Position numbers and translations under genes: made by a program. A DNA stretch of 64,000 nucleotides from Hongsoonwoonella zoysiae. Lineage in GTDB: Bacteria > Pseudomonadota > Alphaproteobacteria > Rhizobiales > Stappiaceae. This document shows positions 35,278 through 51,832 of this stretch, in pieces (the stretch's first letter is position 1; the number at the start of each line of letters is the position of its first letter). The notes under the pieces were generated by a model, which searched no databases, was not told the origin of the DNA, and was given only the letters and a program-made list of their open reading frames with translations. Where the stretch lies: contig NZ_JABRXF010000001.1 of NCBI RefSeq assembly GCF_013266695.1, positions 1,741,736 to 1,805,735 of the forward strand, in the 5' to 3' direction.

Positions 35278-35738
35278 TGCGGGCGCACGGTCCTGCAGTT
35301 TCCGTCGTAGACGCGCCAGCGGTCGAGGCCGGCAAGGCAGGCTTCCACGTTCCATCGGATGCCGACGAAGCCCTGATGCTCGACCACCTTGTAGTAGACG
35401 CGGTGGATGTTGCCGTCGCTCAGCGTGGCGTGGCCTTCGCAGTAGCGCCGCGCAAGCGGGCTCGGGTTGCCGATCTGGTAGCCCGTTTCGACCACACGGT
35501 CGAGGTTCATGATCGTGCGGCCGTCGTAATAGCCGGGGTAGGCGCGCGCCACCCTGCGCGACACCGCCTTCTGCACGGACGTATCGAGGCAGTCGGGAAC
35601 TCGCGGTTCCTTGTTCCTGGAGAAATAGACATGGTCCGGACTGTCGCCGGCGCCGGGGTAGTTTCCGTTCGCGCCCGCTGGCATTGCAAGGCCAGCGGCA
35701 AGTGCGGCGGCAAGGGTTACTCTGGCAATCGCGGACAT
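35274..35738 (-). CDS. Secreted protein of unknown function, first gene of the RNase T2 operon
   Basis: A 154-residue protein with a signal peptide (MSAIARVTLAAALAAGLAMPAGANG). The mature part has five cysteines (CLDTSV, RYCEGH, VEACLAG, DGNCRT) and repeated tyrosines. No domain recognised; it is conserved-looking by composition and is coupled to the RNase T2 gene by a four-base overlap, so it may help fold, inhibit or anchor the RNase (inference). Confidence 0.75.
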   Translation of the reverse strand: MSAIARVTLAAALAAGLAMPAGANGNYPGAGDSPDHVYFSRNKEPRVPDCLDTSVQKAVSRRVARAYPGYYDGRTIMNLDRVVETGYQIGNPSPLARRYCEGHATLSDGNIHRVYYKVVEHQGFVGIRWNVEACLAGLDRWRVYDGNCRTVRPQ

Positions 35739-35852
35739 GTCTGTTCACTCCGGCGCGCATGGGCGGATTTTCCTTGATCTGACGATGCGGTAAGCATGAT
35801 GAAGGGTCAACCCGCGCGCGCAGGCGCGCCGAATATTTCGCGATTGTTGTTG

Positions 35853-36701
35853 CTATTCGTCCACAATCGATACGCATTTCCATGCCGAACCCGGTCCCTC
35901 ACGCAGGGTTTTGCTGAGAAACGGCAAGGCCGATCGCATGTTTTCCGCGAAAGTCCAGGGCGGATTGACGATCACGAGGCCGCTCGAAATCATCGGTTTG
36001 TCGCTCGCCGGCCGCCCGGCTGAAAGTTCAAGCGAAAGGACGTCTCGCATTCCGCTGTCGCGAAGCGTTGCGTGGAGCCGGTCGACGGCCCTCCTGTCCT
36101 TGACCGGATACCAGGCGAGAAAAATCCCGCTCGACCAGCGTTTCCATCCCTCGATGAGCCCCCGGCCGAGCGTTTCGAACTCCCGGGCGTCTTCGAATGC
36201 GGGGTCGATGATGACGAGCCCGCGCCTTTCCTTTGGCGGCAGGAAGCTTTTCAGCGCAAGCCAGCCATCAAGCTCGATCGTCTTGACCTGGATATCGCCC
36301 GCGTAAAGGGCTGAAAGCGTTTCGAAGTCGCGGGCGTGCAGTTCGGTCAGCGTCAGCCGGTCCTGACGCCGGATCAGGCGCCGGGCAATCTCGGGCGATC
36401 CGGGATAACACATAAGCGGCCCGCCCTGGTTCACCGAGGATATCGCCTCCAGCCAGGGCGCAAGCACGCCGCGCACCGTTTCCGGCATTTCCGCTTCCAG
36501 AACGCGGCCAACGCCGCGCCGCCATTCGCCGGTTTTTTGCGCCTCGTCGCTTGAAAGGTCGTAAAGGCCCAGCCCCGCATGCGTGTCGATCACGCGGAAC
36601 GCGGCCGGCTTTCGTTTCAGATAGTCGATGACGAGGGCAAGGGCGATATGCTTGAGCACGTCGCCGATGTTGCCCGCGTGGTAGATGTGGCGGTAGTTCA
36701 C
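35853..36701 (-). CDS. rlmJ: 23S rRNA (adenine(2030)-N6)-methyltransferase
   Basis: A 282-residue protein matching RlmJ from its start (MNYRHIYHAGNIGDVLKHIALALVIDYL) through DTHAGLGLYDL (SAM motif I) to the late NPPWTFAENM. It methylates N6 of A2030 in the 50S subunit before assembly. The catalytic motif IV, normally DPPYE or DPPFE, reads DPAFE here. Its ATG overlaps the GNAT gene stop by ATGA. Confidence 0.93.
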   Translation of the reverse strand: MNYRHIYHAGNIGDVLKHIALALVIDYLKRKPAAFRVIDTHAGLGLYDLSSDEAQKTGEWRRGVGRVLEAEMPETVRGVLAPWLEAISSVNQGGPLMCYPGSPEIARRLIRRQDRLTLTELHARDFETLSALYAGDIQVKTIELDGWLALKSFLPPKERRGLVIIDPAFEDAREFETLGRGLIEGWKRWSSGIFLAWYPVKDRRAVDRLHATLRDSGMRDVLSLELSAGRPASDKPMISSGLVIVNPPWTFAENMRSALPFLSKTLREGPGSAWKCVSIVDE

Positions 36702-37222
36702 GCGTTTTCCGTTTCAGTGGCGGTGCGGGCCGGGATTAGCTCGCGCGCGAGATAGACCACGGCCTTGTCGCCAAGGTCCTGCCGCCCGACTTCCAGAAAG
36801 CCCAGACGTTTGTGAAAGCGCAGCGAGCCGGGGTTGGGCGGGCGTTCGTTGACCTCGCAGGTCAGCGGCGCGCCGGCGCATGTGCCATCGGCCGAAGTTT
36901 CCCCGACAAGCGCGTCATAGAGCTTTTCACCGAGGCCGAGACCGCGCGCCTCCGGCGATACGGCGATCCTGTCGACGTAGAAGAACCGCTCGAAATTTCG
37001 CTTGAGCCACAGGAAATTGCGGCTGTCGTAGTCCGCCGTTTCATCCAGGCAAAGCACGAAGCCGGCCGGCTTTTCATTGCGCTCGCTCACGAGCGTCCTT
37101 GCGGACATGGCGATGAGCCTGGCGAGTTCCGCCGCCTCCAGGCTGTTCACGGCCGGCACGGCGGCCTCGTTGATGGCGATCAGGTTTTCGATGTCGCGGG
37201 GTTCGGCGGGTCGGATGCTCAT
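36698..37222 (-). CDS. GNAT-family N-acetyltransferase
   Basis: A 174-residue protein with the GNAT core: FYVDRIAVSPEARGLGLGEKLYDALVG (acetyl-CoA loop) and NPGSLRFHKRLGFLEVGRQ. The order GNAT-rlmJ, coupled by overlapping ATGA, is seen in related genomes. Substrate unknown. Confidence 0.88.
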   Translation of the reverse strand: MSIRPAEPRDIENLIAINEAAVPAVNSLEAAELARLIAMSARTLVSERNEKPAGFVLCLDETADYDSRNFLWLKRNFERFFYVDRIAVSPEARGLGLGEKLYDALVGETSADGTCAGAPLTCEVNERPPNPGSLRFHKRLGFLEVGRQDLGDKAVVYLARELIPARTATETENA

Positions 37223-37282
37223 ATGTCTCGGTCATGCAGATTTTCGTATGAAATCATGACCTAGCCAGTCGGGTGTCTGGCG

Positions 37283-37325
37283 TCAAAACAAAAAAGCGGC
37301 GGACCTTGGAGCCAGGCCGCCGCTT
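37283..37325 (-). terminator. Rho-independent terminator after the cold-shock gene
   Basis: On the minus strand AAGCGGCGG (37325-37317) pairs with CCGCCGCTT (37302-37294), loop of 14 bases, and is followed by TTTTGTTTTG. It lies 29 bases beyond the stop of the gene at 37354. Confidence 0.8.
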
Positions 37326-37353
37326 CTTTCATTTCGGCTGGTGCGTTGCCGCT

Positions 37354-38169
37354 TCAGTCGTCGAAGCCGCTGTCGCCCGGCTGGTCGTCGTCATCGCCGG
37401 ACGGTTCGGGCGCATCCTCAAGCTTGAGGTCGACGGCCTTGGGTCCCTTGCCGCGCCGGTCCGGCTCCGTCTCGAAGGTCACCCGCTGGCCGCTGTCGAG
37501 CGTGGTAAGGCCGGAGCGTTCGACCGCCGAAATATGCACGAACACATCCGCATCGCCCTCATCGGGCGTGATGAAGCCGAAGCCCTTATCCGCCTTGAAG
37601 AACTTGACCGTGCCGGGCTGGCGCGGTCCGCGTTCCACTGGCGCTCTCGGTCCGCGCGGGCCCCGGTCCTGATAGCCTCCTTCGCCGCGTGGCCCGCCGA
37701 AGCCGCCGCCACCGCGCGGGCTGCCATATCCGCCGCCGCCCGGGCCTCCACGGTCTCCGCTGCCGCCGTATCCACCACGGTCGCCGCCGCCGCCGTATCC
37801 ACCACGGTCGCCGCCGCCGCCGTATCCACCACGGTCGCCGCCGCCGCCATATCCGCCACGGTCTCCACCGCCACGCTGGCCGCCGTAACCGCCGCTCCGC
37901 TGGCCGCCGTAGCCGCCGCCGCGTTGCCCGCCATAGCCGCCGCCACGGTCGTCACGCTCGTTGTTGTAGCCGCCGCGTCCTGCGTCGCGGTTGCCGTATC
38001 TGTCGTTGCCGCCGCTGAAATCGCGGTTTCCGAAGTCTTGTCCGCCGAAGTCGCCGAAATAATCCTGCGGGCCTCCAAATTCACGCTTGCCGCCGCGGCG
38101 GCCGCGCGAACGGCGGTCCGAATTCCCGTCATCCATCTTGCCGATCACCCTGCTGGAGCGGAGCCGCAT
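37354..38169 (-). CDS. Cold-shock domain protein with long glycine-rich N-terminal region
   Basis: About 271 residues. The last third is a cold-shock domain: [36 protein letters not shown] with RNP1 (KGFGFI) and RNP2 (VFVHI) RNA-binding motifs, then an acidic tail. The first 160 residues are an intrinsically disordered RGG-type region with [10 protein letters not shown] and GGGDRGGYG repeats, unusual for a bacterial cold-shock protein and like eukaryotic RNA-binding proteins. Start at ATG 38169 ([11 protein letters not shown]) or 38136; both precede the same domain. The 27-base repeat is listed separately. Confidence 0.88.
37755..37865. repeat. Tandem 27-bp repeat coding for GGGGDRGGY
   Basis: TATCCACCACGG recurs at 37769, 37796 and 37823, with a variant at 37850: four copies at an exact period of 27 bases. 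Copy number is likely variable between strains. It encodes the Gly-rich region of the cold-shock protein. Confidence 0.85.
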
Positions 38170-38674
38170 TGTCCTTTGCTCGCCGGCCCGCCTGTCTTGC
38201 CGATTTAAATGGCCGAAACGCACCGAACACTTTGTGCCACCTGAATTTGCGACACCCCCGACGCGATCCGATTTATCGTCCGGAAGTTGCAACGTGCCGC
38301 AGGGGCCATTCCCCGCCTGGACCGCGCTTGTCTTCCGGTTCGGGCCTCTTGGCCCCTGGCGTCGATCACCCCGACAAACTCCGGATTGTGCCCGCATACA
38401 GGCAGGCCATGCCGGATCGCCGGTCGGTGAACGACCGCGCGGCATCATAAGATTTCCACAGGCTTTTTCGCAAGCGAAACTCAGCGTTAATTTATGAAGA
38501 TACGTAAAAAACGGACCTGAATTATCCCCAACGTCACTTTCCGGCGGCCAAGCCGGCCCGAAGTGCCGCATTTGTTCGCATTTGCATCGTTTGCGGTCAA
38601 TTGAAAGTGTGCCGGTTGTCACCGGTTCGGGGAAGCTATAGGCCGTTTCCTTCGACCAAATAAGGAGCCGGTCC
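38170..38674. other. Long intergenic region between the cold-shock and MBL genes
   Basis: 505 bases without a convincing gene. The region 38450-38560 is AT-richer (for example GTTAATTTATGAAG). It probably holds divergent promoters and a 5' leader of the cold-shock mRNA, which is often long and structured in this family. Inference. Confidence 0.4.
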
Positions 38675-39331
38675 ATGAGTGCTGCCCCCGCCGAACCGCC
38701 GATCCAGATCGCCGTCATCCCCGTCACGCCCTTTCAGCAGAACTGTTCTGTCGTTTTCGACCGCCAGACGAAGGCGGGCGCGGTGGTCGATCCAGGCGGC
38801 GATGTGGATGCCATTCGCAAGGTCATCTCGCAGTACGGCGTCAAGGTGGAAAAGATCGTGCTCACCCATGGACATATCGACCATGTCGGCGGGGCTGCGG
38901 ATCTAGCGGCGGCGCTGGGCGTACCGGTCGAAGGCCCGCATGAGGACGACCGCCAGCTGATTGCCCGCGTTGCGGATCAGGCCGCAAGTTTCGGCCTTGA
39001 AGGGGCAAAGCCGGTCGAGCCGGACAAATGGCTGAAAGAGGGCGACACGATAGACTTCGCCGGCCGCACGTTCGAGGTTCTCCATTGTCCGGGGCATTCG
39101 CCCGGCCATCTCGTTTATTTCGAGCGTGACCTTCGTTTCGCGATTTCCGGCGACGTTCTCTTTGCGGGGTCCGTCGGGCGCACCGACCTACCGGGCGGCG
39201 ATCACGACACGCTCATCCGCTCGATTAAGGAAAAGCTCTTGCCGCTGGGCGATGATGTCGCCTTCCTGCCGGGGCACGGTCCAGGCTCGACGTTCGGGCA
39301 CGAGCGGCAAACAAATTCCTTCCTGAAGTAA
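38675..39331 (+). CDS. MBL-fold metallo-hydrolase (glyoxalase II-like)
   Basis: A 218-residue protein with the beta-lactamase-fold metal motif [10 protein letters not shown] (HxHxDH, near residue 66), then HCPGHSPGH near residue 136, [18 protein letters not shown] near residue 157 (Asp bridging the metals) and FLPGHGPGS near residue 201. It fits the YcbL-like glyoxalase II group. ATG has AAGGAG eight bases upstream. Confidence 0.94.
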
Positions 39332-39447
39332 AAACACCCATTCGCCCGAATTGTGATGCCGGTTACACCCGTCTTTCTCCTTCCGTCCTAATTAAAGGGC
39401 GTAGAGGGCGCGCAATCGCCGCGTTCTTGAACGAGGGAGACAAGACG

Positions 39448-39723
39448 ATGAAACGCATTCGTTCCGCCGTTGCCGTTGCAGTGCTTTCCGCCGTGGTTGT
39501 CGGGCCGGCCGGCCAGGCTTTCGCCGGCAGCGACTATTGGGACCGTTCCGCCACGCTCCGCGATCTTGAGCGTTCCGAAGCGCGCGGCGGGCCTTACATC
39601 AAGGGCGGGCGCTCGGGCTTCCAGACGCGCTTTCGCGTCTGCAACATCCTGCCGACGCCCACCCGCGACCCTCAGACGGGCGAGCGCATCTACGTGAACA
39701 AGGAAGTCTGCTGGTTCGAATGA
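39448..39723 (+). CDS. Small secreted protein, hypothetical
   Basis: A 91-residue protein with a clear signal peptide (MKRIRSAVAVAVLSAVVVGPAGQAFAG; cleavage after AFA). The mature part is basic with two cysteines (RVCNIL, KEVCWFE). An ATG with GGGAGA seven bases before it is the likely start; the in-frame start at 39427 is inferior. Family not recognised. Confidence 0.7.
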   Translation: MKRIRSAVAVAVLSAVVVGPAGQAFAGSDYWDRSATLRDLERSEARGGPYIKGGRSGFQTRFRVCNILPTPTRDPQTGERIYVNKEVCWFE

Positions 39724-39803
39724 ACGCGGCAGCCTCTCCATGACGGTCCGCGCCGGCGGCATGTCCGCCCGCGCCCGTCACGACGCCCCGTCAAAATGCC
39801 CCA

Positions 39804-40712
39804 TCACATTGCAAAATCCGCGACGTCTTTCGCGGATTCTTCAAAAATCCAGTCCCTGAAGGCTTCCACCATCGGGTCGCTCCATTTGTCATCGCGTCCG
39901 ATCAGGCAAAGCCATCCGTCCGTTTCGCATTTCATGTCCTGAAACGGCATGACGAGCGTTCCGGCCCTGATCTCTTCCTGGCAAAGCATCAGGTCGCCCA
40001 TCACGATGCCGGTGCCCATCACGGCCGCTTTCACCGCCATGTCGAGGTTTGGAAAGGCATCGCCGCTTTCCGGGTCGACCCCTTCCACCTTGAAGTGCGT
40101 CAGCCACGCTTTCCAGTCTTCATGCTTCGGGCTTTCGTGAAGAAGCTTTTTGCCGGCAAGGTCCGATGGCTTGTCGAAGGGTCCATGCTCGCGAAGGAAT
40201 CGCGGTGCGCAGGCCGGTGAAAGGGCGGTCGGCAACAGCGGCAGCGAGCGGATGTCGGCGGGCCGCTTGCGCCTGTTGTCCATGGCGAAACCAAGGTCGT
40301 ATTCGCTCGCGTCGAAGCCCGCCTCGCCATAGAAATCCGTCGTCAGCCGTATGTGGATGTCCGGATATTCGATGCGGAATCGGTCGAGCTTGGGGATGAG
40401 CCAGCGAATGGAGAACGTCGGCGGGCAGATGATGCGCAGATCCGCGCCGCTGCGCGAAATGCGTCGCGCTTCCTCGGCGATCCAGCCGAAAGCCTCCGTC
40501 AGGACAGGAAGGAACTTCCGGCCGTGTTCGGTCAACTCCAGGCCCTTCGGCAGTCTCTTGAACAGCGCGACGCCAAGGTGTTCTTCCAGGAGCTTGACAT
40601 GCCGGCTCACCGCCCCGCGCGTCACGTGAAGTTCTTCCGCGGCACCAACATAGCCGCGGTGGCGGGCCGCCGCCTCGAAGGCGCGTAACGAATTGAGGGG
40701 AGGCAGCCTCAA
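39804..40712 (-). CDS. LysR-family transcriptional regulator (GcvA-like)
   Basis: A 302-residue regulator: N-terminal winged helix (RLPPLNSLRAFEAAARHRGYVGAAEELHVTRGAVSRHVKLLEEHLGVALFKR) and a periplasmic-binding-like effector domain. The start is TTG at 40712, preceded by AAAGGAGG seven bases upstream, an unusually strong site for a TTG start. Divergent from the DUF1127 gene with 121 bases between; LysR proteins commonly regulate such a neighbour. Confidence 0.93.
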   Translation of the reverse strand: MRLPPLNSLRAFEAAARHRGYVGAAEELHVTRGAVSRHVKLLEEHLGVALFKRLPKGLELTEHGRKFLPVLTEAFGWIAEEARRISRSGADLRIICPPTFSIRWLIPKLDRFRIEYPDIHIRLTTDFYGEAGFDASEYDLGFAMDNRRKRPADIRSLPLLPTALSPACAPRFLREHGPFDKPSDLAGKKLLHESPKHEDWKAWLTHFKVEGVDPESGDAFPNLDMAVKAAVMGTGIVMGDLMLCQEEIRAGTLVMPFQDMKCETDGWLCLIGRDDKWSDPMVEAFRDWIFEESAKDVADFAM

Positions 40713-40833
40713 CGATCCTCCTTTAATGGATCATGAAACCTGATCCATCCTGACAGATATCTTGGTTTGAAACGCGTTTGCGTTGCCCATAATTAAAACG
40801 CTTCCGAATGTCGTTATGTCAACGGAGGCCTAA

Positions 40834-41169
40834 ATGAAAGCCGATGCGACATGCCCTCGTCAGACGGCGGGCCCTGCGCTTTCAACAGCCGCGTGGCTTG
40901 TTGCCGTAATCAGGAAATTTCAACGCTCCGCAGCGCGGCGCGCGTGTCGGCATAAACGTCTTGCCGATCTTCAGCGTCTTGCGGATACGTCGCCGCATTT
41001 GCTTGAGGATATCGGTTACGGCCTGGGGGATGAAAACGGCAGATTCGCAAGGTCGGCCCCGCCGGCAAGGTGGCCGAACCCTTCCTATCTGGGAAGGACT
41101 GGGTGCGGGCGAAAGTTTATCCGCAGGCGATGCGAGAACGATTTGTTCGCACGTCCGCCCGTGCTGTGA
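40834..41169 (+). CDS. DUF1127-type small protein
   Basis: A 111-residue ORF whose middle (RAARRACRHKRLADLQRLADTSPHLLEDIGYGLGDE) fits the DUF1127 pattern, L..L.D..L.DIG. Known DUF1127 proteins bind RNA and link phosphate, arginine and stress regulation in Agrobacterium and Rhodobacter. GGAGG lies six bases before the ATG. The last 35 residues after the domain look atypical; the natural protein may end earlier or have shifted frame. Divergent from lysR. Confidence 0.65.
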   Translation: MKADATCPRQTAGPALSTAAWLVAVIRKFQRSAARRACRHKRLADLQRLADTSPHLLEDIGYGLGDENGRFARSAPPARWPNPSYLGRTGCGRKFIRRRCENDLFARPPVL

Positions 41170-41201
41170 GCATGCGTTTCACATCATTGAAAGATGAGGG
41201 A

Positions 41202-42212
41202 TCAAAGCAGGCTTCGAAGCGTGTCGAGCCGCGCGTTGACGAGCCAGCCGTAGTAGTTTTCCTGGGGCCACGTCACCTTGCCGGCGGCTTTCTGCCGGCG
41301 GAAGTTTGATGCCCGCGCCCATGGATCGCCAAGGTTGTAAAGCGTCGCCGTTATGCCGGGGTTTTTCGAAATATCCACCTTCGCGACCGATTTATAGGCC
41401 TGGATCGCATCCCTTATCACCGCCGCCATGTAGTGGAGCGAACGGTTCGGATCCATCGTCGAACGGTAGATCTCGTTGGCATCGCGCGGGGACAGCTTTT
41501 CGAAGCCGCTGGTGCGCGACACCGCGTCCGACATCTTCAGCACCGTCAGTGGCGAGAGCTGGCCAAGGCCGAAGCTCTGGCCGGCGAAAAGCGGCTGGAA
41601 GAATGTCTCGTTGAAGTTCTTGTCGGGATAGCGCACCCCGTTTACCCGCTTGTTGCGAAAGACCTGCTCCCAAAGCCGCTCGTAGCAGGTCCACAGGTGG
41701 TTGCTGTCCCGTCTCCTGGCGCGGCAGGAATCGAACGCGGGCCTTGCGACAAATTCCTCCACGTTCTCGCCGCGGTACTCGAAGTCGAGACGGATGCCGG
41801 CATAGCTCAGCGCCTTGACGTAGTAGGACTGCGCGCTGTCCAGGCTGTCGTAATTATAGGTATGTTCGCCGATGATCGCGCCCAGCATATGCACCGGGTC
41901 GATGCCGTATTGCGCCGAAACCTGCTTGATGTCGCGGATCAGCCGGGTGTCGCGGCGCAATACGCCAATCACCCTGTCGAATTTCGCGTCGTAGCTGGAG
42001 CGGCTCGCCGCCGTGCGCCTTGCCGATGCGAAGGGGATTTCCGGTTGCTCCGCACTTCGGTTTCCCTCCGGCACCACCTGCATCGCCGCGAATGCCACAG
42101 CCGGGGCGGGAAGCGGTGCTGCCGCAAATACGAACGCGCCGAGCGCAATCAGCCGGAAGACGGCGGGCGCTCTCGTGAAGCGGTTCGCAATCGACGGGGC
42201 ATCGGTCGGCAT
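41202..42212 (-). CDS. DUF1402 family protein, secreted
   Basis: A 336-residue protein with a basic then hydrophobic start (MPTDAPSIANRFTRAPAVFRLIALGAFVFAAAPLPAPAVAF), signal-like. The body fits DUF1402 as described in rhizobia: RLIRDIKQVSAQYGIDPVHMLGAIIGEHTYNYDSLDSAQSYYVKAL and GQSFGLGQLSPLTVLKM, reminiscent of the goose-lysozyme/lytic transglycosylase fold (Glu in GAIIGEHTYN), so a peptidoglycan-cutting role is possible. GGAGAG precedes the ATG at 42212. Confidence 0.8.
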   Translation of the reverse strand: MPTDAPSIANRFTRAPAVFRLIALGAFVFAAAPLPAPAVAFAAMQVVPEGNRSAEQPEIPFASARRTAASRSSYDAKFDRVIGVLRRDTRLIRDIKQVSAQYGIDPVHMLGAIIGEHTYNYDSLDSAQSYYVKALSYAGIRLDFEYRGENVEEFVARPAFDSCRARRRDSNHLWTCYERLWEQVFRNKRVNGVRYPDKNFNETFFQPLFAGQSFGLGQLSPLTVLKMSDAVSRTSGFEKLSPRDANEIYRSTMDPNRSLHYMAAVIRDAIQAYKSVAKVDISKNPGITATLYNLGDPWARASNFRRQKAAGKVTWPQENYYGWLVNARLDTLRSLL

Positions 42213-42394
42213 CGATCTCTCCAGAGGGAAGCGAACGCGGGATATCTCTTTTCGAAAAATGACGCTAGTGCAAGGGCGACACATCCGCCATGGGTTCACG
42301 GTCGGACGATTCGCAAAAACTAGCGATTTTTGCGAAGCGATGGAATTGGTCGAAGGGGACATGCCCCGTCAAATTTCTCGTTACCCGGCATCGT

Positions 42395-42760
42395 TCACGC
42401 ATTCCGGAGCGAGGCCGGCCCCATGCTCAGGCGCACGCGCTTAGGCACGCTCATCTCGCGCATCAGCCCGTCGTGGCGGTGCAGGCCGCAAAGTTCGCGC
42501 TGGATGATGACATGCCACAGCGCCTCGCCGGCTTCCGCGATCAGCCTTTGCCGCCGGGCCGGGTCGGGCGGTTCGGCGTTCGCGGCCTGCGCTTGCGCGA
42601 TGCGCTCCTCGTGTGCGGCGAGCCTTGCCAGAGCCTTTTCCAGCTTGGTCATCAGGCGGGCGAGCGTATCGGCCTTCTCGCTCATCACCTCCTGTTCCAG
42701 CGCCTTCGCCAGAGGGTCTTTCTCGGAAGCCGTGAACTGTCGCGGCGGTCTGACGGACAT
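42395..42760 (-). CDS. DUF6665-like small helical protein
   Basis: A 121-residue helical protein (PLAKALEQEVMSEKADTLARLMTKLEKALARLAAHEERI, then GEALWHVIIQRELCGLHRHDGLMREMSVPKRVRLSMG). I recall this as the DUF6665 family, found beside anmK in Rhizobiales; the anmK stop is five bases before its start, so the two share a transcript. Function unknown. Confidence 0.7.
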   Translation of the reverse strand: MSVRPPRQFTASEKDPLAKALEQEVMSEKADTLARLMTKLEKALARLAAHEERIAQAQAANAEPPDPARRQRLIAEAGEALWHVIIQRELCGLHRHDGLMREMSVPKRVRLSMGPASLRNA

Positions 42761-42764
42761 CGTC

Positions 42765-43895
42765 CTACCGTTCCTCGTTGGCGCGGGCGGTCCTGCCGCC
42801 CGTCATGGGCTGCGGCGCGCCCGTCGTTTCGGGAAAGCTGATCGGCAGGCCGCGAAGCGCGCGCACCGCCAGGAAGGCGAAGCATTCCGCCTCCACGGCG
42901 TCGCCGCGAAGTCCCGCGTCCTCCGCCATCACGGGCTCCACCTTCGCGCGTTCCCTGAGGGCCGCCATGAAGGCCGGGTTCTTGCGCCCCCCGCCGCTGA
43001 CGATCACCCGCTCGGGCCGGCGGGGAAGGATGTCGAGGCCCTTGCCCACGGCGGCGGCGGAAAAGGCGGTCAGCGTCGCCGCCCCGTCTTCCAGCGTCAG
43101 CCCGTCGGCCATTGCGGCGGTGAAGCCGTTGCGGTCTAGGGACTTGGGGTAAGGCGCGCTCAGGTAAGGGTGCTGGAGGAGCCGGGCAAGCCGGGCCTCG
43201 TCCACTGTGCCCGCTGCCGCCAGCCGGCCGTCTTCGTCGTATGGGCCGGCGCCGTGTTTCGCCACCCAGTCGTTGATCGGCGCATTGGCGGGTCCGGTGT
43301 CGAATGCCGCCAGCTTCTCGGCTCCGCCCCACCATGTGATGTTGGCGACGCCGCCGAGGTTCAGCACCGCCGAGCCGGGTTTCGCGCCCGCCTTCTTGAG
43401 GAGGGCCGCGTGATAGATCGGCGCCAGCGGCGCGCCCTGTCCCCCTGCCGCCACATCGGCCGAGCGGAAATCGTAAACCGTGTCGATGCCGGTGATCTCC
43501 GCCATCAGCGCCCCGTCGCCGAGCTGGCGCGTCGCGCCTTTTTGCTCATGCGATGGCGCACGGTGCAGCACCGTCTGCCCGTGAAAGCCGATCGCGGCGA
43601 TGTCGCGGGCGGGAATGCCCTCGTCCTTCAGGAAGGTGTTGACGGCTTCGCCTTGCGCGCGCGTCAGCATGGCCTCGGCTTCAGCGAATATCGCCGGTTC
43701 CGGCCCCTCGAAGTTCCAGGCGGCTGCGGTGCTCATCGCCTCGCGCAGAACGGGGGCGAGGTCCGGCGGATAGGGCGCAAGTCGCCACGGCCCGAATTCG
43801 GCGATTTCCTCGCCGTCGGTGCGGATCATGGCGATGTCGATGTTGCCGTCCAGCACCGTGCCGGTCATCAGCCCGACCGCCCAAACCGGGTTCAT
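42765..43895 (-). CDS. anmK: Anhydro-N-acetylmuramic acid kinase
   Basis: Converts 1,6-anhydro-MurNAc plus ATP to MurNAc-6-phosphate in cell-wall recycling. The product is 376 residues with the family start [27 protein letters not shown] near residue 100, [10 protein letters not shown] near residue 185 and [11 protein letters not shown] near residue 290. ATG 43895 has AGGGAG six bases upstream; an earlier ATG at 43913 is less favoured. Confidence 0.95.
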
Positions 43896-44499
43896 AGGCG
43901 TCTCCCTGTTCATGCTGGCTGGGAGAATAGCGGCGTGACCAGCGCGGGCAAGCGCGCATGTTCCGTCAACGGTTTTATCGCATTTCCCGACGGCAGGTTG
44001 CATTAATCGTTAATCTATCAAATTGTTTGCAACTGCCGCGCGATGCGTTAGCAATTCATTAAACACAGATCAGCCCGCGCCGGTTATATCGCCGGGATGC
44101 GGAAAAGCTGATCGCCTGAAAAATGTGGCGGGGGGCACCGCCATAGAGCACTTCGAAAACCGGATTCTTCTGCCGCCGGACGCATTTCCGGCGAACGGTA
44201 CACTATTGCGTGGAGTGGATGTTATGACTTCGAGCCTTGCGGACCAGATCGGCCTCACCCTTCTTTTCGGCGCGCTTTTGGGCGCGATCAGCATGACGGC
44301 GGAAGCCGAAGCGATGATCACCGCCGCACGGCTGTTTGCTTTTTGAGGGCGGCACAACCTCGACGTCACGAAGAACGTCACCCCGGACCAGTGAGGCGAA
44401 GCCGCGCGCCGATCCGGGGCCCAGATATCTGATGCGGGCTTTGCCCGCGCATTATTGCACAGCAGCGGGCCCAGACCCGGCGATCCATGGGCAATGGCG
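43896..44499. other. Intergenic region with palindromic repeat DNA, one doubtful small ORF
   Basis: 604 bases. The 3' part, 44370-44490, is made of alternating GC-rich palindromic pieces (CCGGGGCC, GGGCTTTGCCCG) of rhizobial-repeat character. A 40-codon ORF lies at 44224-44346. No other gene was seen. Confidence 0.5.
44224..44346 (+). CDS. Possible 40-residue hydrophobic peptide
   Basis: ORF of 41 codons with GGAG eight bases before ATG. The product (MTSSLADQIGLTLLFGALLGAISM...) has one hydrophobic helix. It lies in repeat-adjacent DNA and could be chance. Confidence 0.3.
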   Translation: MTSSLADQIGLTLLFGALLGAISMTAEAEAMITAARLFAF

Positions 44500-44787
44500 T
44501 CAGGCCAACTCCTCATAGAGATCGCGCCATTCCGGGTTCATCGCTCGGATCAGGTCGATCTTCCACCGTCTCGGCCAATGCTTGATGTTTTTCTCGCGCT
44601 GGATGGCAAGCGGCATCGTCTCGTGGCGTTCGTACCAGACAAGCTGGACGACGCCGTAGCGGCTGGTGAAGCCGGGCGTCAGTTGGTTTCGGTGTTCATG
44701 GATGCGGCGGCGGGAAAGGTCGTTCGTCACCCCGGTGTACAGCGTCCCGTTCCGCTTCGAAGCGGTAATGTAAGCCCACCCTTCCAT
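44500..44787 (-). CDS. GIY-YIG nuclease family protein
   Basis: A 95-residue single-domain protein: WAYITASKRNGTLYTGVTNDLSRRRIHEH (GIY-YIG strands written AYI and LYTG, with the catalytic Arg) and VQLVWYERHETMPLAIQREKNIKHWPRRWKIDLI (the conserved Glu region). The tail ends PEWRDLYEELA. This is the common small UPF0213-like group often found next to rhizobial repeats. The in-frame ATG at 44823 would start inside repeat A and is less likely. Confidence 0.85.
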   Translation of the reverse strand: MEGWAYITASKRNGTLYTGVTNDLSRRRIHEHRNQLTPGFTSRYGVVQLVWYERHETMPLAIQREKNIKHWPRRWKIDLIRAMNPEWRDLYEELA

Positions 44788-44808
44788 AAGCGGATGCAAC
44801 TGCTGATT

Positions 44809-44862
44809 GGGTGCCCGGGTCATGCCCGGACTTGATCCGGGTACCGGGCATGACGAATTGAG
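44809..44862. repeat. Repeat A, copy 1
   Basis: A 54-bp palindromic sequence (GGGTGCCCGGGTCATGCCCG ... TACCGGGCATGACGAATTGAG). It recurs at 45021-45074 with two mismatches. It lies just upstream of the AT-rich island. Confidence 0.85.
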
Positions 44863-44930
44863 GGGCTATCGGTTCAATCTCCATCGCTGCGTGGTTCGTG
44901 GCGGGGCCTCCCTCCACACGCTGTGTCCTC

Positions 44931-44970
44931 TCCTCCGTCATCGCCGCCTGTCCCCGACCTGATCGGGGAG
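44931..44970. repeat. Repeat B, copy 1
   Basis: A 40-bp sequence ending ACCTGATCGGGGAG; recurs at 45115-45154 with a few mismatches. Copies A and B alternate (A-B-A-B). Confidence 0.8.
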
Positions 44971-45020
44971 GCTTGACCCGGCGACCCATAAAACGCTCAC
45001 CAAACACGCGGAAGCTGCAT

Positions 45021-45074
45021 GGGTGCCCGGGTCTTGCCCGGATTTGATCCGGGTACCGGGCATGACGAATTGAG
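45021..45074. repeat. Repeat A, copy 2
   Basis: Second copy of the 54-bp repeat, differing from copy 1 at two positions (ATGCCCGGAC against TTGCCCGGAT). Confidence 0.85.
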
Positions 45075-45114
45075 AAGTTTCGGCAAGATATTCGGAGCTA
45101 GAGCGCACCGCCTC

Positions 45115-45154
45115 TCCCCCGTCATTGCCGCCTGTCCTCGACCTGATCGGGGAG
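45115..45154. repeat. Repeat B, copy 2
   Basis: Second copy of the 40-bp repeat; closes the A-B-A-B block about 80 bases before the base composition turns AT-rich. Confidence 0.8.
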
Positions 45155-45284
45155 CCGCTCGCGCGGGCACGCGGGCCAGTATGGCACCTGTCGCGCACCG
45201 CTATCGCCGTATCGCACCTGTCATCCGGGCTTGACTGGTAGTATCAAGTAGTGCGCGGAACCGTGGTTGCATGGGTGGATTCCC

Positions 45285-45316
45285 AATAAGCATTGAATCG
45301 GAACAATTCACTTATT
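45285..45316. other. Imperfect inverted repeat at the edge of the AT-rich island
   Basis: AATAAG at 45285-45290 and CTTATT at 45311-45316 enclose GAAT...ATTC. It lies at the left edge of the island. It could be an end sequence, a terminator for the minus-strand ORF, or chance. Confidence 0.35.
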
Positions 45317-45362
45317 AGAGCGGAAGGCCTACCCCAAACGAGAATATTCGATGCCACGTGTT

Positions 45363-45536
45363 TTATTTTTTTATCTTGTCGCGGCTTTCATTTGTATGCT
45401 GCGAAAGCTTCTTTTGGCTTCTTTCTATTTGAGTAGACTGCCAATTGGAATAGGATGCGTTCTGTCGCTTAATCAAGCGATTAATCTTTGTGTCTATCCT
45501 ATCGTTCATACGGACAGCGCCCTTTAAACTGTGCAT
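45363..45536 (-). CDS. Divergent 57-residue basic peptide beside the dCTP deaminase, hypothetical
   Basis: ORF of 58 codons, below the size of most ORF lists. The product is hydrophilic and basic (MHSLKGAVRMNDRIDTKINR then a Lys/Gln/Ser-rich tail ending RDKIKK), with one likely helix. GGGAGG lies nine bases before the ATG (45536), followed by a second GGAG, a strong ribosome site. It is transcribed away from the deaminase gene; the two starts are 104 bases apart. A 58-codon hydrophobic ORF on the other strand (45351-45527) overlaps it but has no ribosome site. No family recognised; an antitoxin-like or regulatory role is only a guess. Confidence 0.5.
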   Translation of the reverse strand: MHSLKGAVRMNDRIDTKINRLIKRQNASYSNWQSTQIERSQKKLSQHTNESRDKIKK

Positions 45537-45569
45537 AGCTCCAATCCTCCCAGAATCAGATTATTAACA

Positions 45570-45595
45570 TAATATGAACCTATCGTTAATATGAA
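45570..45595. promoter_or_regulatory. Direct repeat TAATATGAA between the divergent genes
   Basis: TAATATGAA occurs at 45570-45578 and at 45587-45595, 17 bases apart, 45 bases upstream of the deaminase ATG and 33 upstream of the minus-strand ORF start. It includes TAATAT, which could be a -10 element, so the pair may be an operator or two -10 boxes. Confidence 0.4.
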
Positions 45596-45640
45596 ATCTA
45601 GTGACGTATCTATTGAATTCACATAAAATTTGGAGGGAAA

Positions 45641-47167
45641 ATGAACGATTTACTTACAAACATGGAATTTCCAGAAATATTTATTGGTTTCGTTGCGCCA
45701 ATCGGTGTTGATCTTGATGAAACCATTTCTGCTTTTGAAGCATATTTCTCTTCTTGCGATTATGATGTCGTAAAAATTAGAATCACAGATCATTTTGAAG
45801 AATATGCGGACCTAATTCCACCAATAGAAAAACTTAGTAATTCATCATTTGAGAAACGTTATCAAACTCATATTGCTTATGGAAATCAGCTTAGGAGAAA
45901 ATTTAACGATAATGCTATATTGGCATCCGCCGCGATATTCGAGATTGTTTCAAATAGAGATGAAATAAAAAGAAAAAGGAAAAAGGATAGGAGAAAAATT
46001 GATGATTTTACAAAGACGGTCTACCTAATTAGGCAGTTTAAACGCCAGGAAGAGGTTGAATTATTTAGGTCTGTTTATAGAGAAAATTTCTTTCAAGTCT
46101 CAGTATATTCTCGTAGAGGGGCGAGGGTCGATTACCTCTCACGAAGGATTGCTGAGAGTCGCGGATCGGCAAATATTACTGATTTTAGATCTATGGCAGA
46201 AGAGCTTGTTTCTATTGACGAAAATGAACGTGATAAATTTGGCCAAAAGGTAGGAAAAATTTTCCATGATGCAGATTTAATAATTAATTCAGATATTGCT
46301 GAGCCTGAGGTCTCATCGCAAGTCGAACGATTTTGTGAGTTACTATTTTCATCAAATGTAATTTCTCCAAGTAAACTGGAGTATGGAATGTTTGCAGCTA
46401 AGGCTGCAGCTCTTAGGACTCTTGATCTGTCACGTCAGGTTGGGGCGGCAATATTCTCCGCCAATGGAGAAATAATTTGTCTTGGTTCAAATGAGGTCCC
46501 TAAAGCGCTGGGTGGAACATACTGGGAGTCTGACGGAAAGATTGATGACAGGGACTATAAAAGAAAAAAAGACACCAATTATATTAGAAAGGTGGAGATT
46601 GTTCGCGAGGTATTAAAGGCCATATTGCCGAATGAAAATATTGAAGAATTAGTAAAATCAAAAAAAGTACAGGATTTACAAATTATGGATGCCTTAGAAT
46701 ATGGGCGAATTATACATGCGGAGATGGCGGCAATCTCAGATGCCGCTAGATTGGGGAGAGAGCTAAAAGATTCCATCCTTTATTGTACGACTTTTCCCTG
46801 TCATATGTGCGCAAGGCACATCGTATCTTCCGGAATTAAGAAGGTATATTTTCTAGAGCCTTATCCAAAAAGTTTGTCGGTTAATTTGCACACAGATTCA
46901 ATATCTTTTGAGGGAGAAGATAGAGGCGAATATAGCGAGTATCCGATGGTGGAGTTTTTACATTTTTATGGTGTAACTCCTAGAAGATACAGAGAGTTAT
47001 TCGAAAGAAGTAAGCGCAAAAATGATGACGGTATTTTGGAGTCATATATCAATAATCATAAGAGGCCAAATATAAACATAAAAACGCCAAACTACTCAGA
47101 ATATGAAGTTTTTATTCTCAATAATCTCAGAGCCGCTTGGAAGACAATAAGAAATGCAGAAGTGTAG
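45641..47167 (+). CDS. Anti-phage dCTP deaminase (AvcD/DCD type)
   Basis: A 508-residue two-domain protein. The N-terminal domain (1-220) resembles a P-loop kinase whose Walker A is degenerate (GFVAPIGVDLDE, no GKT lysine). The C-terminal part is a zinc deoxycytidylate deaminase: Zn ligands His359, Cys387 and Cys390 and catalytic Glu361 are visible as IIHAEMAAI and TFPCHMCARHI. This is the layout of the bacterial dCTP deaminases reported in 2022 as phage defence (AvcD, DCD). They empty the dCTP pool on infection; in Vibrio a small RNA upstream (AvcI) keeps the enzyme silent. Codon use is AT-rich (many AGA, ATA, TTA), unlike all neighbours, so it is probably transferred. GGAGGG lies nine bases before the ATG. 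Confidence 0.92.
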   Translation: MNDLLTNMEFPEIFIGFVAPIGVDLDETISAFEAYFSSCDYDVVKIRITDHFEEYADLIPPIEKLSNSSFEKRYQTHIAYGNQLRRKFNDNAILASAAIFEIVSNRDEIKRKRKKDRRKIDDFTKTVYLIRQFKRQEEVELFRSVYRENFFQVSVYSRRGARVDYLSRRIAESRGSANITDFRSMAEELVSIDENERDKFGQKVGKIFHDADLIINSDIAEPEVSSQVERFCELLFSSNVISPSKLEYGMFAAKAAALRTLDLSRQVGAAIFSANGEIICLGSNEVPKALGGTYWESDGKIDDRDYKRKKDTNYIRKVEIVREVLKAILPNENIEELVKSKKVQDLQIMDALEYGRIIHAEMAAISDAARLGRELKDSILYCTTFPCHMCARHIVSSGIKKVYFLEPYPKSLSVNLHTDSISFEGEDRGEYSEYPMVEFLHFYGVTPRRYRELFERSKRKNDDGILESYINNHKRPNINIKTPNYSEYEVFILNNLRAAWKTIRNAEV

Positions 47168-47181
47168 AATTACATCGGAAT

Positions 47182-50103
47182 TCACCTCCCCGCTCTCCCC
47201 GTCTTCTTCGGCCTGCCCCTGTGCCCTTTCTCCTCCTCGGAGCCGACACCGGGCCTTGCGCGAGGCAGGGGCACTTCCGTCCGTCCGACAGTCATCTCGT
47301 CCAGCGTATTCTTTCTTACCTTGCCGCTCACGGCCGCATCGGGCTCGCGCCCTGGCCTCCGCGAGGGCGCGCCATCAGGCGCGACGCCCGCTTGGGCTTG
47401 CGCGCTATCGCGCGATGAACGTCCCTTGCCGGGCACAGCCCCGCCGCCCTTCGCCTTCCGCTTGCCTGAAGCCCCTTCCAGCGTGCCGCCGGCGCCGAAT
47501 TTCCGCTCGCCTTTGTAGCCGCCGGTCTTGTCCTCGATCTGAGATTGCCTTGCCAGCGGATCGTCGGAGATCGCCAGTTCCGTCTCGCGCAGGCGCTTGA
47601 CCTCGTCGCGCAGCCGCGCCGCCGTCTCGAAGTCGAGGTCGGCCGCCGCCTCGCGCATCTTCTTCTCCAGGTCCTCGATATGCGCCTGAAGGTTGTGGCC
47701 GATCATGCCCTCCGCCGCCTCGGCCATTCCCTTGTCGACCGTGACGTGGTCCTGCTCGTAGACGCTTTCCATGATGTCGCCGATGGAGCGGCGCACGCTT
47801 TCCGGCGTGATGCCGTGTTCCACGTTATAGGCGACCTGCTTTTCGCGGCGGCGGTTCGTCTCGGCAATCGCGCGTTCCATCGATCCGGTGCGATGGTCGG
47901 CATAAAGGATCACGCGCCCGTCGACGTTTCGCGCCGCGCGGCCGATGGTCTGGATCAGCGAGGTTTCGGAGCGCAGGAAACCCTCCTTGTCGGCATCCAG
48001 AATGGCGACAAGCCCGCATTCGGGAATGTCCAGCCCCTCGCGCAAGAGGTTGATGCCCACCAGCACGTCGAACGCGCCGAGGCGAAGATCGCGGATGATC
48101 TCGATGCGCTCCAGCGTGTCGATGTCGGAGTGCATGTAGCGCACGCGCACGCCGTTTTCGTGCAGATATTCCGTCAGGTCCTCGGCCATGCGCTTGGTCA
48201 GGGTCGTGACCAGCGTGCGGTAGCCCTTCTGCGCCACCTCGCGCACCTCGCCCAAGAGGTCGTCCACCTGGGTGGAGGCGGGCCGCACGTCGATCTCCGG
48301 GTCGACAAGGCCTGTCGGGCGGATCACCTGTTCCGCGAAGACGCCGCCGGCCTCTTCCATCTCCCAGCCGCCGGGTGTGGCGGACACGGCGACGGTCTGC
48401 GGGCGCATGGCGTCCCACTCCTCGAAGCGCAGCGGGCGGTTATCCATGCAGGAGGGAAGGCGGAAGCCGTATTCGGCAAGTGTGGCCTTGCGGCGGAAGT
48501 CGCCCCGGTACATGCCGCCGATCTGCGGAATGGTGACATGGCTTTCATCGACGAAGACGATAGCGTTGTCCGGCAGGTATTCAAACAGCGTGGGCGGCGG
48601 TTCGCCCGGCGCGCGGCCCGTGAGATAGCGCGAATAGTTCTCGATGCCGGCGCAGGAGCCGGTCGCCTCCAGCATTTCAATGTCGAAGATCGTGCGCTGC
48701 TCCAGCCGCTGCGCCTCCAGCAGGCGGCCGTGGTTGTGCAGTTCCTCCAGCCGCTGCTTGAGTTCGGCCTTGATGGATTTGATCGCCTGGTTCAGCGTCG
48801 GCTTCGGCGTCACATAGTGCGAATTGGCGTAGATCTTGACCGACTTCATCTCGCCGGATTTTCTGCCCGTCAGCGGGTCGAACTCGGTGATCGCTTCCAC
48901 CTCGTCGCCGAAGAGGGACACACGCCAGGCCCGGTCCTCATAGTGCGCGGGGAAGATTTCCACCGTGTCGCCGCGCACGCGGAAAGATCCGCGCTGGAAG
49001 GCGGCGTCGTTGCGCTTGTACTGCAGCGCGACGAGGTCGGCGAGCAACTGGCGCTGGTCGATGCGCTCGCCCACCTCCAGCGCGAAGGTCATGGCGGTAT
49101 AGGTCTCCACCGAGCCGATACCGTAGATGCAGGAGACGGAAGCGACGATCACCACATCGTCGCGCTCCAGCAGCGCGCGCGTGGCGGAGTGGCGCATGCG
49201 GTCGATCTGCTCGTTGATCGAGCTTTCCTTCTCGATATAGGTGTCCGTGCGCGGGACGTAGGCTTCCGGCTGGTAATAGTCGTAGTAGGAAACGAAATAT
49301 TCCACCGCGTTATCGGGGAAGAAGTTCTTGAACTCGCCGTAGAGCTGGGCGGCCAGCGTCTTGTTGGGCGCCAGGATCAGGGCGGGGCGCTGCGTGCGCT
49401 CGATCACCTGCGCCATGGTGTAGGTCTTGCCGGAGCCGGTGACGCCCAGCAGCACCTGCGTCTTGTCCTGGTCCTTCAGCCCCTGCACGAGGTCGGCGAT
49501 GGCCGTCGGCTGGTCGCCCTTCGGCTCGTATTCGGAGGCGAGCACGAGGCGCACCCCGCCTTCGGATTTCTCGGGCCGCGGCGGGCGGTGCGGCGTCCAC
49601 GGCGTGCCGTCGCGGTGCAGCGGGTTGCCGTGCTCGATGAGGTCCGAAAGCGCCTTCACCGTTTCAGTGTGGCCGGTGGTGCCGTCGGAAAGTTCGGGCC
49701 GCTCCTTCTTTTTCTTCTTGTTGGCCTTGGTGTGTTTGGCCAGAAGCTCCTCGGCTTCTTCCAGCGAGACATCGAGCCCGGCGATCGGGTTCAGTCCGCC
49801 CGCCGCGCGCTCGCGCGGGCTGGAGCTGTCGCCCATGGAGGTGCCGCGCGCGGAGCGGGCAGGGGCTTTCTGCTTCTTCGGCTTTTCGGCGGTTTTGGGC
49901 TTCGCCTTTTTCGCCGGCTTGGGCGCGGCGTCCGTCGCGTCGGAAATCTCCTTCGCCCAGTCGGAAATGGAGCCGGACAGCGGCGCGCCGGAAAGCTCGC
50001 CCAGCGGCGCTTCGCCCAGGCCGTCGCCCGCGCGGGTTTCGCGCGCCTGCGGCAGGGTGTCTTCGCTCTCGGGATTCGTCGCTGGGGAGGGTCGCTTGGC
50101 CAT
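47182..50103 (-). CDS. uvrB: Excinuclease ABC subunit B, long form
   Basis: The helicase-like damage-verifying subunit of nucleotide excision repair. From the ATG at 50103 the product is 973 residues, against about 670 in E. coli. Landmarks: Walker A GVTGSGKT, the beta-hairpin [46 protein letters not shown] and the C-terminal UVR motif [28 protein letters not shown]. The extra length is a Lys/Ala-rich N-terminal extension of about 200 residues and a C-terminal tail of about 110, typical of Rhizobiales. No SOS box was recognised upstream. Confidence 0.96.
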
Positions 50104-50218
50104 GGCCGCAAATATGGATAATTCCATATCGTATGGAAACCCCGCGTTCGCCATTCGTCCCGCAATCCACCGTCCCTGCTGACACAACGGTGGCGGCAGG
50201 GGCGGTTGTGTTTCTTTT

Positions 50219-50761
50219 CTAGCGGCAGTAGGGGCCGGTGGTGTCCATCGCCTCCGCCGCGCCGTTCAGCGAAAACCGTCCGTAGGTCTCGAAAGGGCTT
50301 CCGTCCGGTGCCGCCTCCGGCAAAAGGTCGAACCGCAGTTCCAGGCTGTTGCCACTGCGCAGGGCGGCGGCCAGCGGCGGCGAGATCGGCGCAAGGTAGT
50401 TCTGCGCTTCCCGGCCTTCGGAGAAAAGCACCGTCGTCGCTTCCGCCCCGGCAGCGGCCAGCGGAAAGGCCTCGCCGTCGATCACGGCCAGCACCTTGCC
50501 GGGCAGATACTGGAATTCGCTGGTCTCGCCCGTGTCGGCGTGGAAGATCGGCCCGTCGTTTGCGGCATAGATTTCCAGCTTCATCTCGTCGGCGCATTGC
50601 ACGGCCAGCGCCACCATCGTCGAGTTCGTCTCCAGAACCCGCGTAAAGGCGGTGTCGCTCACCGTTTCCCAATCGCTTGCGGAGGCGGCGCTGGCGAATG
50701 TCGTCAGGCTTACGGCAAGGGCGAGGGAAAGCTTGAGGGCGGAGAGGCGGAAATGTTGCAT
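50219..50761 (-). CDS. Secreted protein of unknown function
   Basis: A 180-residue protein with a signal peptide ([30 protein letters not shown]). The mature part has a [14 protein letters not shown] segment and ends TTGPYC R with a terminal cysteine that could pair with the internal Cys. No family recognised. GGAA is eight bases before the ATG at 50761; earlier in-frame ATGs lack a site. Confidence 0.7.
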
Positions 50762-50896
50762 GGCCGGCTGTTCCGTGAAACGCATGCGGGGCATAACCTG
50801 TTTGCGGGCGCGTATCCGTTCTTGCAATTGACGTTAGTGTGAAACGCGAATGCGATTTCTTTGCGACGCCGGGAAATTTGGCGGAAAGGAAAAGGC

Positions 50897-51832
50897 ATGA
50901 ATTCTTCCGGTGTCTTTCCGCTTGGCGAGATTTCCCGCGCGCTTTCCGCCGCCGGGCTGGCGGATCGTGTCGGGGCGGATGACGTCTCGCCGCTCTCGGG
51001 CCTTACCAACCGCGTTTTCCGGGTCGATCTCCCCGAAGGCGCGGGTGTTGTCGTGCGCCTGCCGAGGCCGGAAACGGCCGGGCTCATCGACCGGCGGCGC
51101 GAATTGCATAACGCAAGGGAAGCTGAACGCGTCGGCATCGGGCCGCAGATCCTCCATGCCGATCCCGAAAGCGGCGTCATGGTCACGCGGCTGGTGGCGG
51201 GTGCGCGGGAGCTTGTCCCCGTCGCGGCGGGCCATGATATGTTGGCGCGCGTCGGCGCCGCCTTCGCCCGGTTGCATCGCTCGGGCGCTGTGTTCGAGGG
51301 GCGGCTCGATCCCTTCGCCCTGATCTCGGATGCGGCTGCGCGCCTGCCCGGTCTCGATTCCGCCTGGCGCGGTCTGGTCGCCGACGTGGTGGCACTTCGG
51401 GGTGGTGATGTAACGTATGGGAAGGAGTTGGCGCCCTGCCACTGCGATCCGGTGCCCGGCAACGTCCTCGAAAGGCGCCCTGAAAGCCATGAGGGAATTA
51501 AAGATACCCCTTTCGGAACCTTTTCCGACCCTTCCGGAATTCTCCTGGTGGACTGGGAATATTCGGCGATGGCCGATCCCGCCTGGGATCTCGCCTATTT
51601 CGCGCTGGAGGCGGAGCTTTGCGAAAATTCGCTGGTTCATCTGCTCGAAGGTTACGGCGGCGGCGCGGGGATGGGTCAAAGGGTCGCCCGAATGAAGCCG
51701 GTCTGTGACTGCCTGTCGGGCCTCTGGGCGCTCGAGCAATTTCACGCCGGAAATTCCGCAACGGATTTCCATACTTACGCGGAAAAACGCCTTGATCGCG
51801 CAAATCGGGCACTGGCGGCGCTCAGCGGCTGA
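50897..51832 (+). CDS. Choline kinase-like phosphotransferase (APH family)
   Basis: A 311-residue kinase-fold protein: LSGLTNRVFRVDL (ATP loop), VVVRLPRPETAG, the catalytic loop CHCDPVPGNVLE near residue 180 (HxDxxxxN) and the metal-binding ILLVDWEYSAMADPAWDLAYF near residue 215. The set matches choline/ethanolamine and related small-molecule kinases. Choline is a fair guess for a rhizobial with phosphatidylcholine synthesis but is not proven. It overlaps the next convergent gene by 11 bases. Confidence 0.88.
   Translation: MNSSGVFPLGEISRALSAAGLADRVGADDVSPLSGLTNRVFRVDLPEGAGVVVRLPRPETAGLIDRRRELHNAREAERVGIGPQILHADPESGVMVTRLVAGARELVPVAAGHDMLARVGAAFARLHRSGAVFEGRLDPFALISDAAARLPGLDSAWRGLVADVVALRGGDVTYGKELAPCHCDPVPGNVLERRPESHEGIKDTPFGTFSDPSGILLVDWEYSAMADPAWDLAYFALEAELCENSLVHLLEGYGGGAGMGQRVARMKPVCDCLSGLWALEQFHAGNSATDFHTYAEKRLDRANRALAALSG

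Follow-up and report, generated by a model that had tools for sequence, protein, structure and literature searches.

In the AvcID defence system of Vibrio, the element that controls the deaminase AvcD is AvcI, which, according to the founding papers of 2022, reportedly acts without being translated. One account (PMC10511110) states that AvcD deaminates dCTP and dCMP after infection, that the labile AvcI RNA keeps AvcD inactive until phage-induced shut-off of transcription removes it, and that the minimum functional AvcI is about 171 bases long. Three papers describe AvcI of Vibrio as a noncoding RNA that is encoded beside avcD (PMC9455884, PMC10511110, PMC12409362). Control by a protein is described (PMC12249575) for Sofic, a defence enzyme for which a counteracting short protein, AS1, encoded by a neighbouring small gene, came to light later. 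Few cases are known of how nucleotide-depleting defence enzymes are silenced in healthy cells, and no small-protein partner of dCTP deaminases is found among the matches listed in the open-licence PMC literature.

The window, i.e., the whole 64,000-nucleotide stretch of Hongsoonwoonella zoysiae DNA analysed here, contains an anti-phage dCTP/dCMP deaminase gene (45641..47167, plus strand) and, 104 nt upstream of it and in divergent orientation, a gene for a protein of 57 aa (45363..45536, minus strand; GC 0.40) that lies within the same AT-rich block and was overlooked in an earlier sequence-only reading of this DNA. We consider it fairly probable that the two genes form an acquired anti-phage cassette, in which the small divergent protein most likely holds the deaminase inactive as long as the cell is uninfected. 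A defence enzyme of known type that sits in a variable slot looks ordinary; the conserved, dedicated small-protein gene, apparently a component of the system in this branch, is less so.

Both genes have recognisable translation signals, GGGAGG at 45546..45551 (minus strand), nine bases before the ATG of the small gene, and GGAGGG at 45632..45637 (plus strand) for the deaminase. The divergent intergenic region of 104 nt (45537..45640) is, from the gene layout, the putative promoter site for both genes; promoter-like matches in 45200-47300 do not exceed those in shuffled sequence (6 vs. a shuffled mean of 5.6). The same region includes an imperfect direct repeat (45564-45595, TTAA...TATGAA twice), a possible operator.

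When the upstream ORFs of the relatives were compared all against all, on both strands, minus-strand ORFs of about 55-75 codons proved to be conserved at the position of the small gene. For profile searches, 123 loci were reduced by 18 (3 duplicates, and 15 that were truncated, had no full-length gene or had less than 300 nt upstream) to 105, and the upstream ORFs of these full-length, non-duplicate loci were searched with three profiles made from 27 seed ORFs picked by eye; the searches added 16 members to the seeds, some of them already noticed in the earlier comparisons. A profile-recognised small protein is present in 43 of the 105 deaminase loci, 16 of type A, 15 of type B and 12 of type C (some of the type C rows are near-copies), and all 43 small ORFs are on the minus strand. 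Type A, which includes the window protein, is characterised by a Trp that is invariant in all 15 aligned sequences (Trp32 in the window), type B by an RRGP motif, and type C by an AYxxALxDFR-like motif. Leave-one-out searches recovered 42 of the 43 members at E < 0.01, the one missed being L016 at 0.043. A type A profile built without the window ORF and run against 1285 upstream ORFs still matched it at E 5e-4, and no unassigned ORF scored better than E 0.38; with the window ORF included, the match in the genome has E 1.2e-15.

Homology among the three types was considered and set aside as not significant (hhalign E 0.08-0.13), although types A and C align in the register that had been noticed by eye. 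Given that the types cannot be significantly aligned, one shared function of A, B and C is an assumption. Pfam, PHROGs, PADLOC and NCBIfam contain no match for the window small protein and no convincing match for representatives of the three types, for which the only two matches were weak: one to a Pfam coiled-coil model, below its cut-off (E 0.017), and one to a PHROG without an assigned function (E 0.096). The small protein of Pararhizobium gei is recorded at NCBI as the hypothetical protein WP_275791396.1, indicating that members of these families are already present in databases without a function.

The distribution of the small gene follows the deaminase phylogeny. In a 105-row tree of the deaminases, the 43 loci with a small protein all fall in one 57-member group (SH-aLRT 97), with none among the 48 rows outside. 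Types B and C occupy one branch each (99 and 95), type A needs 5 changes, being scattered across the remainder of its subgroup, and all type labels together require 7 changes on the tree vs. a mean of 39.9 for shuffled labels, a value as low being reached in 0 of 200 shuffles. The same association emerges without profiles: 51 of the 57 group members, vs. 7 of the 48 others, have a divergent ORF that starts with ATG, is 45-95 codons long and lies 15-170 nt upstream; for co-directional ORFs of 45-95 codons, the counts are 17 of 57 and 11 of 48.

The 14 group members that lack a profile match are heterogeneous. In four of them (L005, L007, L015, L056), the divergent ORF encodes a Trp in a comparable context, in another four (L027, L034, L079, L080) it shows a GW motif recognised by eye, and two (L075, L082) have some other divergent ORF; L069 has an unrelated ORF, and L020 a weak type C match that lies farther off (E 0.04). 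The remaining two, L006 and L017, come from two metagenome genomes, encode deaminases that are 92% identical, and have no divergent ORF, which indicates that the partner is not always kept. In both, the GC content of the deaminase gene (L006 5001-6476, L017 4247-5722) is 0.62-0.63, close to that of the flanks, and the stretch before the gene resembles what we take to be the end of a P-type ATPase. They are perhaps settled, partnerless copies.

In 377 genomes of the order, the two strong matches of the type A profile (window and G128) are training rows that adjoin a deaminase; the type B profile has five, all of them beside a deaminase, with those in G095 and G186 not being training rows. For the two types together, 7 of 7 strong matches adjoin a deaminase, and, as five of these are training rows, the worth of the genome searches is that no strong match occurs anywhere else. 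Weak matches that do not adjoin any of the deaminases found in the order at E <= 1e-20, three for type A (E 0.003-0.007) and four for type B (E 0.005-0.01), were taken as chance. As in type II-like toxin-antitoxin systems, an adjacent small-protein gene is associated with its partner, and the partnership of the small gene with the deaminase is strongly supported.

With respect to mechanism, we propose that the deaminase would convert dCTP and dCMP to dUTP and dUMP, starving phage DNA synthesis, and that the small helical protein from the divergent 57-aa gene would be a dedicated part of the system. It would keep the deaminase inactive in uninfected cells, taking as a protein the part that the AvcI RNA plays in Vibrio; once a phage shuts off host gene expression, the labile small protein would be the first to be lost, and the enzyme would be released. 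That the small protein inhibits the deaminase and that it is unstable are both suggested here by analogy. The AlphaFold2 model of the small protein, a single helix spanning residues 2-56 (pLDDT 85, 17 sequences), speaks neither for nor against inhibition and gives it no preference over activation.

Activation is indeed what the main alternative envisages: the small protein might be a trigger, an activator or a phage-sensing subunit that is altered by infection and then switches the deaminase on. Such a role would account for the strong association between the small gene and the deaminase, and the existence of three small-protein types is what one would expect under phage pressure or if the small protein is bound to a diverging enzyme. 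We nevertheless regard it as unlikely, given that the control described for this family (PMC10511110) is release from an inhibitor. L006 and L017, with an enzyme and no partner, also count against an activator, although they fit an inhibitor no more cleanly.

Inhibition by the small protein, the reading that we prefer, is also to be weighed against inhibition by RNA, and here the substitution pattern is informative. Substitutions at codon positions 1/2/3 of the small ORFs number 210/154/288 in type A, 424/341/710 in type B and 481/374/798 in type C. The dN/dS ratio is 0.08 to 0.58 in the 23 unsaturated pairs out of 59 counted, the other 36 being saturated at synonymous sites; the pairs have 40-97% amino-acid identity, which favours low ratios, and are not independent. 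In a frame control, the frame of the small ORF scored best of the six in 12 of 12 chosen pairs, and an ATG with a ribosome-site-like 4-mer was found by a lenient search in 37 of the 43 small ORFs. This pattern of substitutions indicates selection on the small protein.

A second alternative holds that the inhibitor is an AvcI-like noncoding RNA produced from the upstream region, with the divergent ORF serving some other role, e.g., transcriptional self-repression. The precedent is the Vibrio AvcI, an RNA encoded beside avcD (PMC9455884, PMC10511110, PMC12409362), and a plus-strand RNA antisense to the small ORF, or an unstructured RNA, would be compatible with the data. However, the minus-strand ORF is conserved as a protein, with an excess of third-position changes. 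Likewise, RNAalifold gave a weak result for 10 type C upstream regions (6 pairs at -0.69 kcal/mol, of which a hairpin that follows the small gene and resembles a terminator accounts for half), and no match at the gathering score was found with Rfam in 44300-47300. We consider an RNA inhibitor at this locus, with another role for the ORF, to be rather unlikely. A known RNA element was also rejected as a candidate, the only Rfam match being sub-threshold and irrelevant.

The identity of the enzyme itself is clear. The ORF at 45641-47167 (plus strand) starts with ATG and has 508 codons, exactly as in the sequence-only reading, which had also assigned the product to the anti-phage dCTP deaminases and recognised in it the two-domain AvcD/DCD layout, a degenerate P-loop and the residues His359, Glu361, Cys387 and Cys390; each of these points is borne out. 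The protein matches the NCBIfam model NF041025 (anti-phage dCTP deaminase) over its whole length with 429.2 bits, above the curated cut-off of 400, the PADLOC dCTPase model with 513 bits, and Pfam PF00383 at 1.2e-18. AvcD itself presumably belongs to NF041025 as well. A scan of genome contigs for deaminase relatives yielded 65 loci, and His359 and Glu361 (HAE motif, codons within 46715..46723, plus strand) and Cys387 and Cys390 (PCHMC motif, codons within 46799..46810, plus strand) do not vary among the aligned full-length proteins (60 of 60), a set that includes the window protein.

The AlphaFold2 model of the deaminase (65 sequences; pLDDT 93.7, pTM 0.92) consists of two domains. The predicted fold of the N-domain (residues 13-236; 45677..46348, plus strand) is P-loop-kinase-like and matches that of the adenylate-kinase-related structure 3lw7_A (VIA-align Z 16.2, 170 residues, rmsd 2.4), whereas the C-domain (residues 243-452; 46367..46996, plus strand) has a predicted dCMP/dCTP deaminase fold matching the dCMP deaminase 2hvv_A (VIA-align Z 18.6, 143 residues). 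According to the column frequencies, residue 23, the Walker lysine site as placed here, is lysine in 0 of the 59 proteins that have a residue there, T, V, A or S in 57 and I in two, which implies that degeneration of the P-loop characterises the whole family and does not mark the window copy as defective. Family models, active site and predicted fold confirm the window protein as an AvcD/DCD-type anti-phage dCTP deaminase, and we infer that it depletes dCTP and defends against phages.

The deaminase gene differs sharply in composition from its surroundings, with a GC content of 0.37, and 0.32 in the preceding 104 nt, between flanks of about 0.6-0.7 on both sides, and with a GC3 of 0.31 vs. 0.85 in uvrB and 0.83 in anmK. 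Its stop codon ends at 47167, and the stop codon of the convergent uvrB gene starts at 47182, leaving a gap of 14 bases. The sister species G002 is syntenic on both sides by BLASTN (82% identity over 33596-44349, 90% over 47443-51282); on the uvrB side, the match restarts at 47184, beside the uvrB stop (86% over 47184-47337). Comparison with the corresponding G002 region (L115) delimits a variable slot from the conserved left flank to the uvrB stop (44350..47183), in which G002 has different DNA, AT-rich in parts and devoid of the deaminase, sharing with the window only short repeats. REP-like copies of such repeats occur at 44900-45154 in the window, and several are present in the G002 slot (L115 11308-11667 and 12655-12845). 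The G002 slot also contains at least two AT-rich ORFs (L115 12053-12532, 159 aa, and 13140-13796, 218 aa), possibly some unknown cargo, for both of which a Pfam search gave no match.

The deaminase is patchy, with matches at E <= 1e-20 in 25 of the 397 sampled genomes of the order, at E <= 1e-40 in 13 of 385 genomes of the class, and in two of three genomes of the genus, the window's own genome being included in each count. The deaminase of the congener G001 (L002 1516-2970) is 34% identical to that of the window and belongs to a different tree group; as judged from this divergence, it is an independent acquisition within the genus. In G001, the deaminase and uvrB are located on separate contigs (C60 vs. 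C49), the DNA behind uvrB is AT-rich (GC 0.35-0.47), and the first 1.5 kb contains no deaminase match. In five of 19 profiled relatives, the 250 nt that follow uvrB have a GC content no higher than 0.41. Together, the different slot content of G002, the AT-rich DNA of G001 and the low GC content in these five show that the 3' side of uvrB is a variable slot in the genus, and perhaps in the family; it resembles a place where the genus takes up cargo. A tRNA search of the window found none, and tRNA-guided insertion was accordingly rejected.

By composition and synteny, then, the deaminase gene is a horizontally acquired gene in the variable slot behind uvrB. The sequence-only reading had likewise described an AT-rich gene and upstream DNA amid GC-rich neighbours, ending 14 bases short of the uvrB stop, and had deemed acquisition probable; GC3, the patchy spread and the other DNA of the sister species at this site agree with acquisition. 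The comparison with close relatives that it had proposed as a check did not, in its sequence part, refute acquisition, since G002 has no deaminase at the syntenic site. Where that reading stands corrected is the acquired unit, which comprises two genes and not one. A GC content below that of the flanks typifies the deaminase genes of the family in general, being found in 102 of the 105 loci.

Relatives of the deaminase are found in 17 viral-contig loci and 57 plasmid records, and the E. coli C11 relative is surrounded by genes that carry the annotation of an integrative element. The pair of deaminase and small gene in Pararhizobium gei comes after AbiEii-type, ATP-binding and UvrD-type genes, a neighbourhood with the look of a defence island. 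A phage origin was considered and rejected, full-length relatives being few (in two of 60 matching phage records, the match spans at least 80% of the query); the other phage rows listed are short matches, mostly annotated as dCMP deaminase. That the deaminase is instead an acquired pyrimidine-salvage enzyme with no role in defence is highly improbable, for even though the C-domain fold is nearest to ordinary dCMP deaminases, the full-length score above the curated anti-phage cut-off, the kinase-like N-domain, the patchy spread, the occurrence of relatives in plasmids, in viral contigs and in an integrative element, and the defence-like neighbours in P. gei all argue against it.

Compared with Sofic and AS1, the proposed pair in the window is alike in combining a defence enzyme with an adjoining small-protein gene, but Sofic is an unrelated FIC AMPylase, and the AS1 gene is located downstream of it, whereas the small gene of the window is divergent and upstream. 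The anti-phage dCTP deaminases of E. coli and Klebsiella, plasmid-borne as well as chromosomal, are homologous over 90% or more of the query, with 32-33% identity in the plasmid rows listed, and L070 and L071 fall in a tree group separate from that of the window. In place of the divergent ORF of the window, these enzymes have a co-directional ORF of 60-62 codons, which is present upstream in 9 of 10 enterobacterial loci (E. coli, Klebsiella, Pantoea) in five distinct sequences (L070 705-887, L152 1716-1898, L071 2688-2873, L167 1849-2037, L169 1670-1855); the Pantoea locus has no such ORF within the stretch read. In the most informative pair, L070 and L152, dN/dS is 0.29 over 60 codons, and the ORF looks protein-coding. 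By position, this ORF sits where AvcI would be, making the coding question worth asking there too.

We put forward, more tentatively and with somewhat less than even confidence, that control in a large alphaproteobacterial branch of these deaminases is exerted not by RNA but by exchangeable divergent small proteins of at least three unrelated-looking types, in effect a protein-antitoxin version of AvcID, and the ORFs of E. coli and Klebsiella suggest that such a partner may be family-wide. If so, what appears as a single gene in the lists of defence finders would be a two-gene system in this branch, assays of the enzyme gene alone would omit the part that controls it, and the three small-protein types would provide a ready set for work on partner specificity. 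As in AvcID of Vibrio, the window encodes a deaminase of the same family, judging by the curated model and the motifs, and has a putative control element beside the deaminase gene; in AvcID this element is a noncoding RNA, whereas the element upstream of the deaminase in the window is a divergent gene whose protein is under selection.
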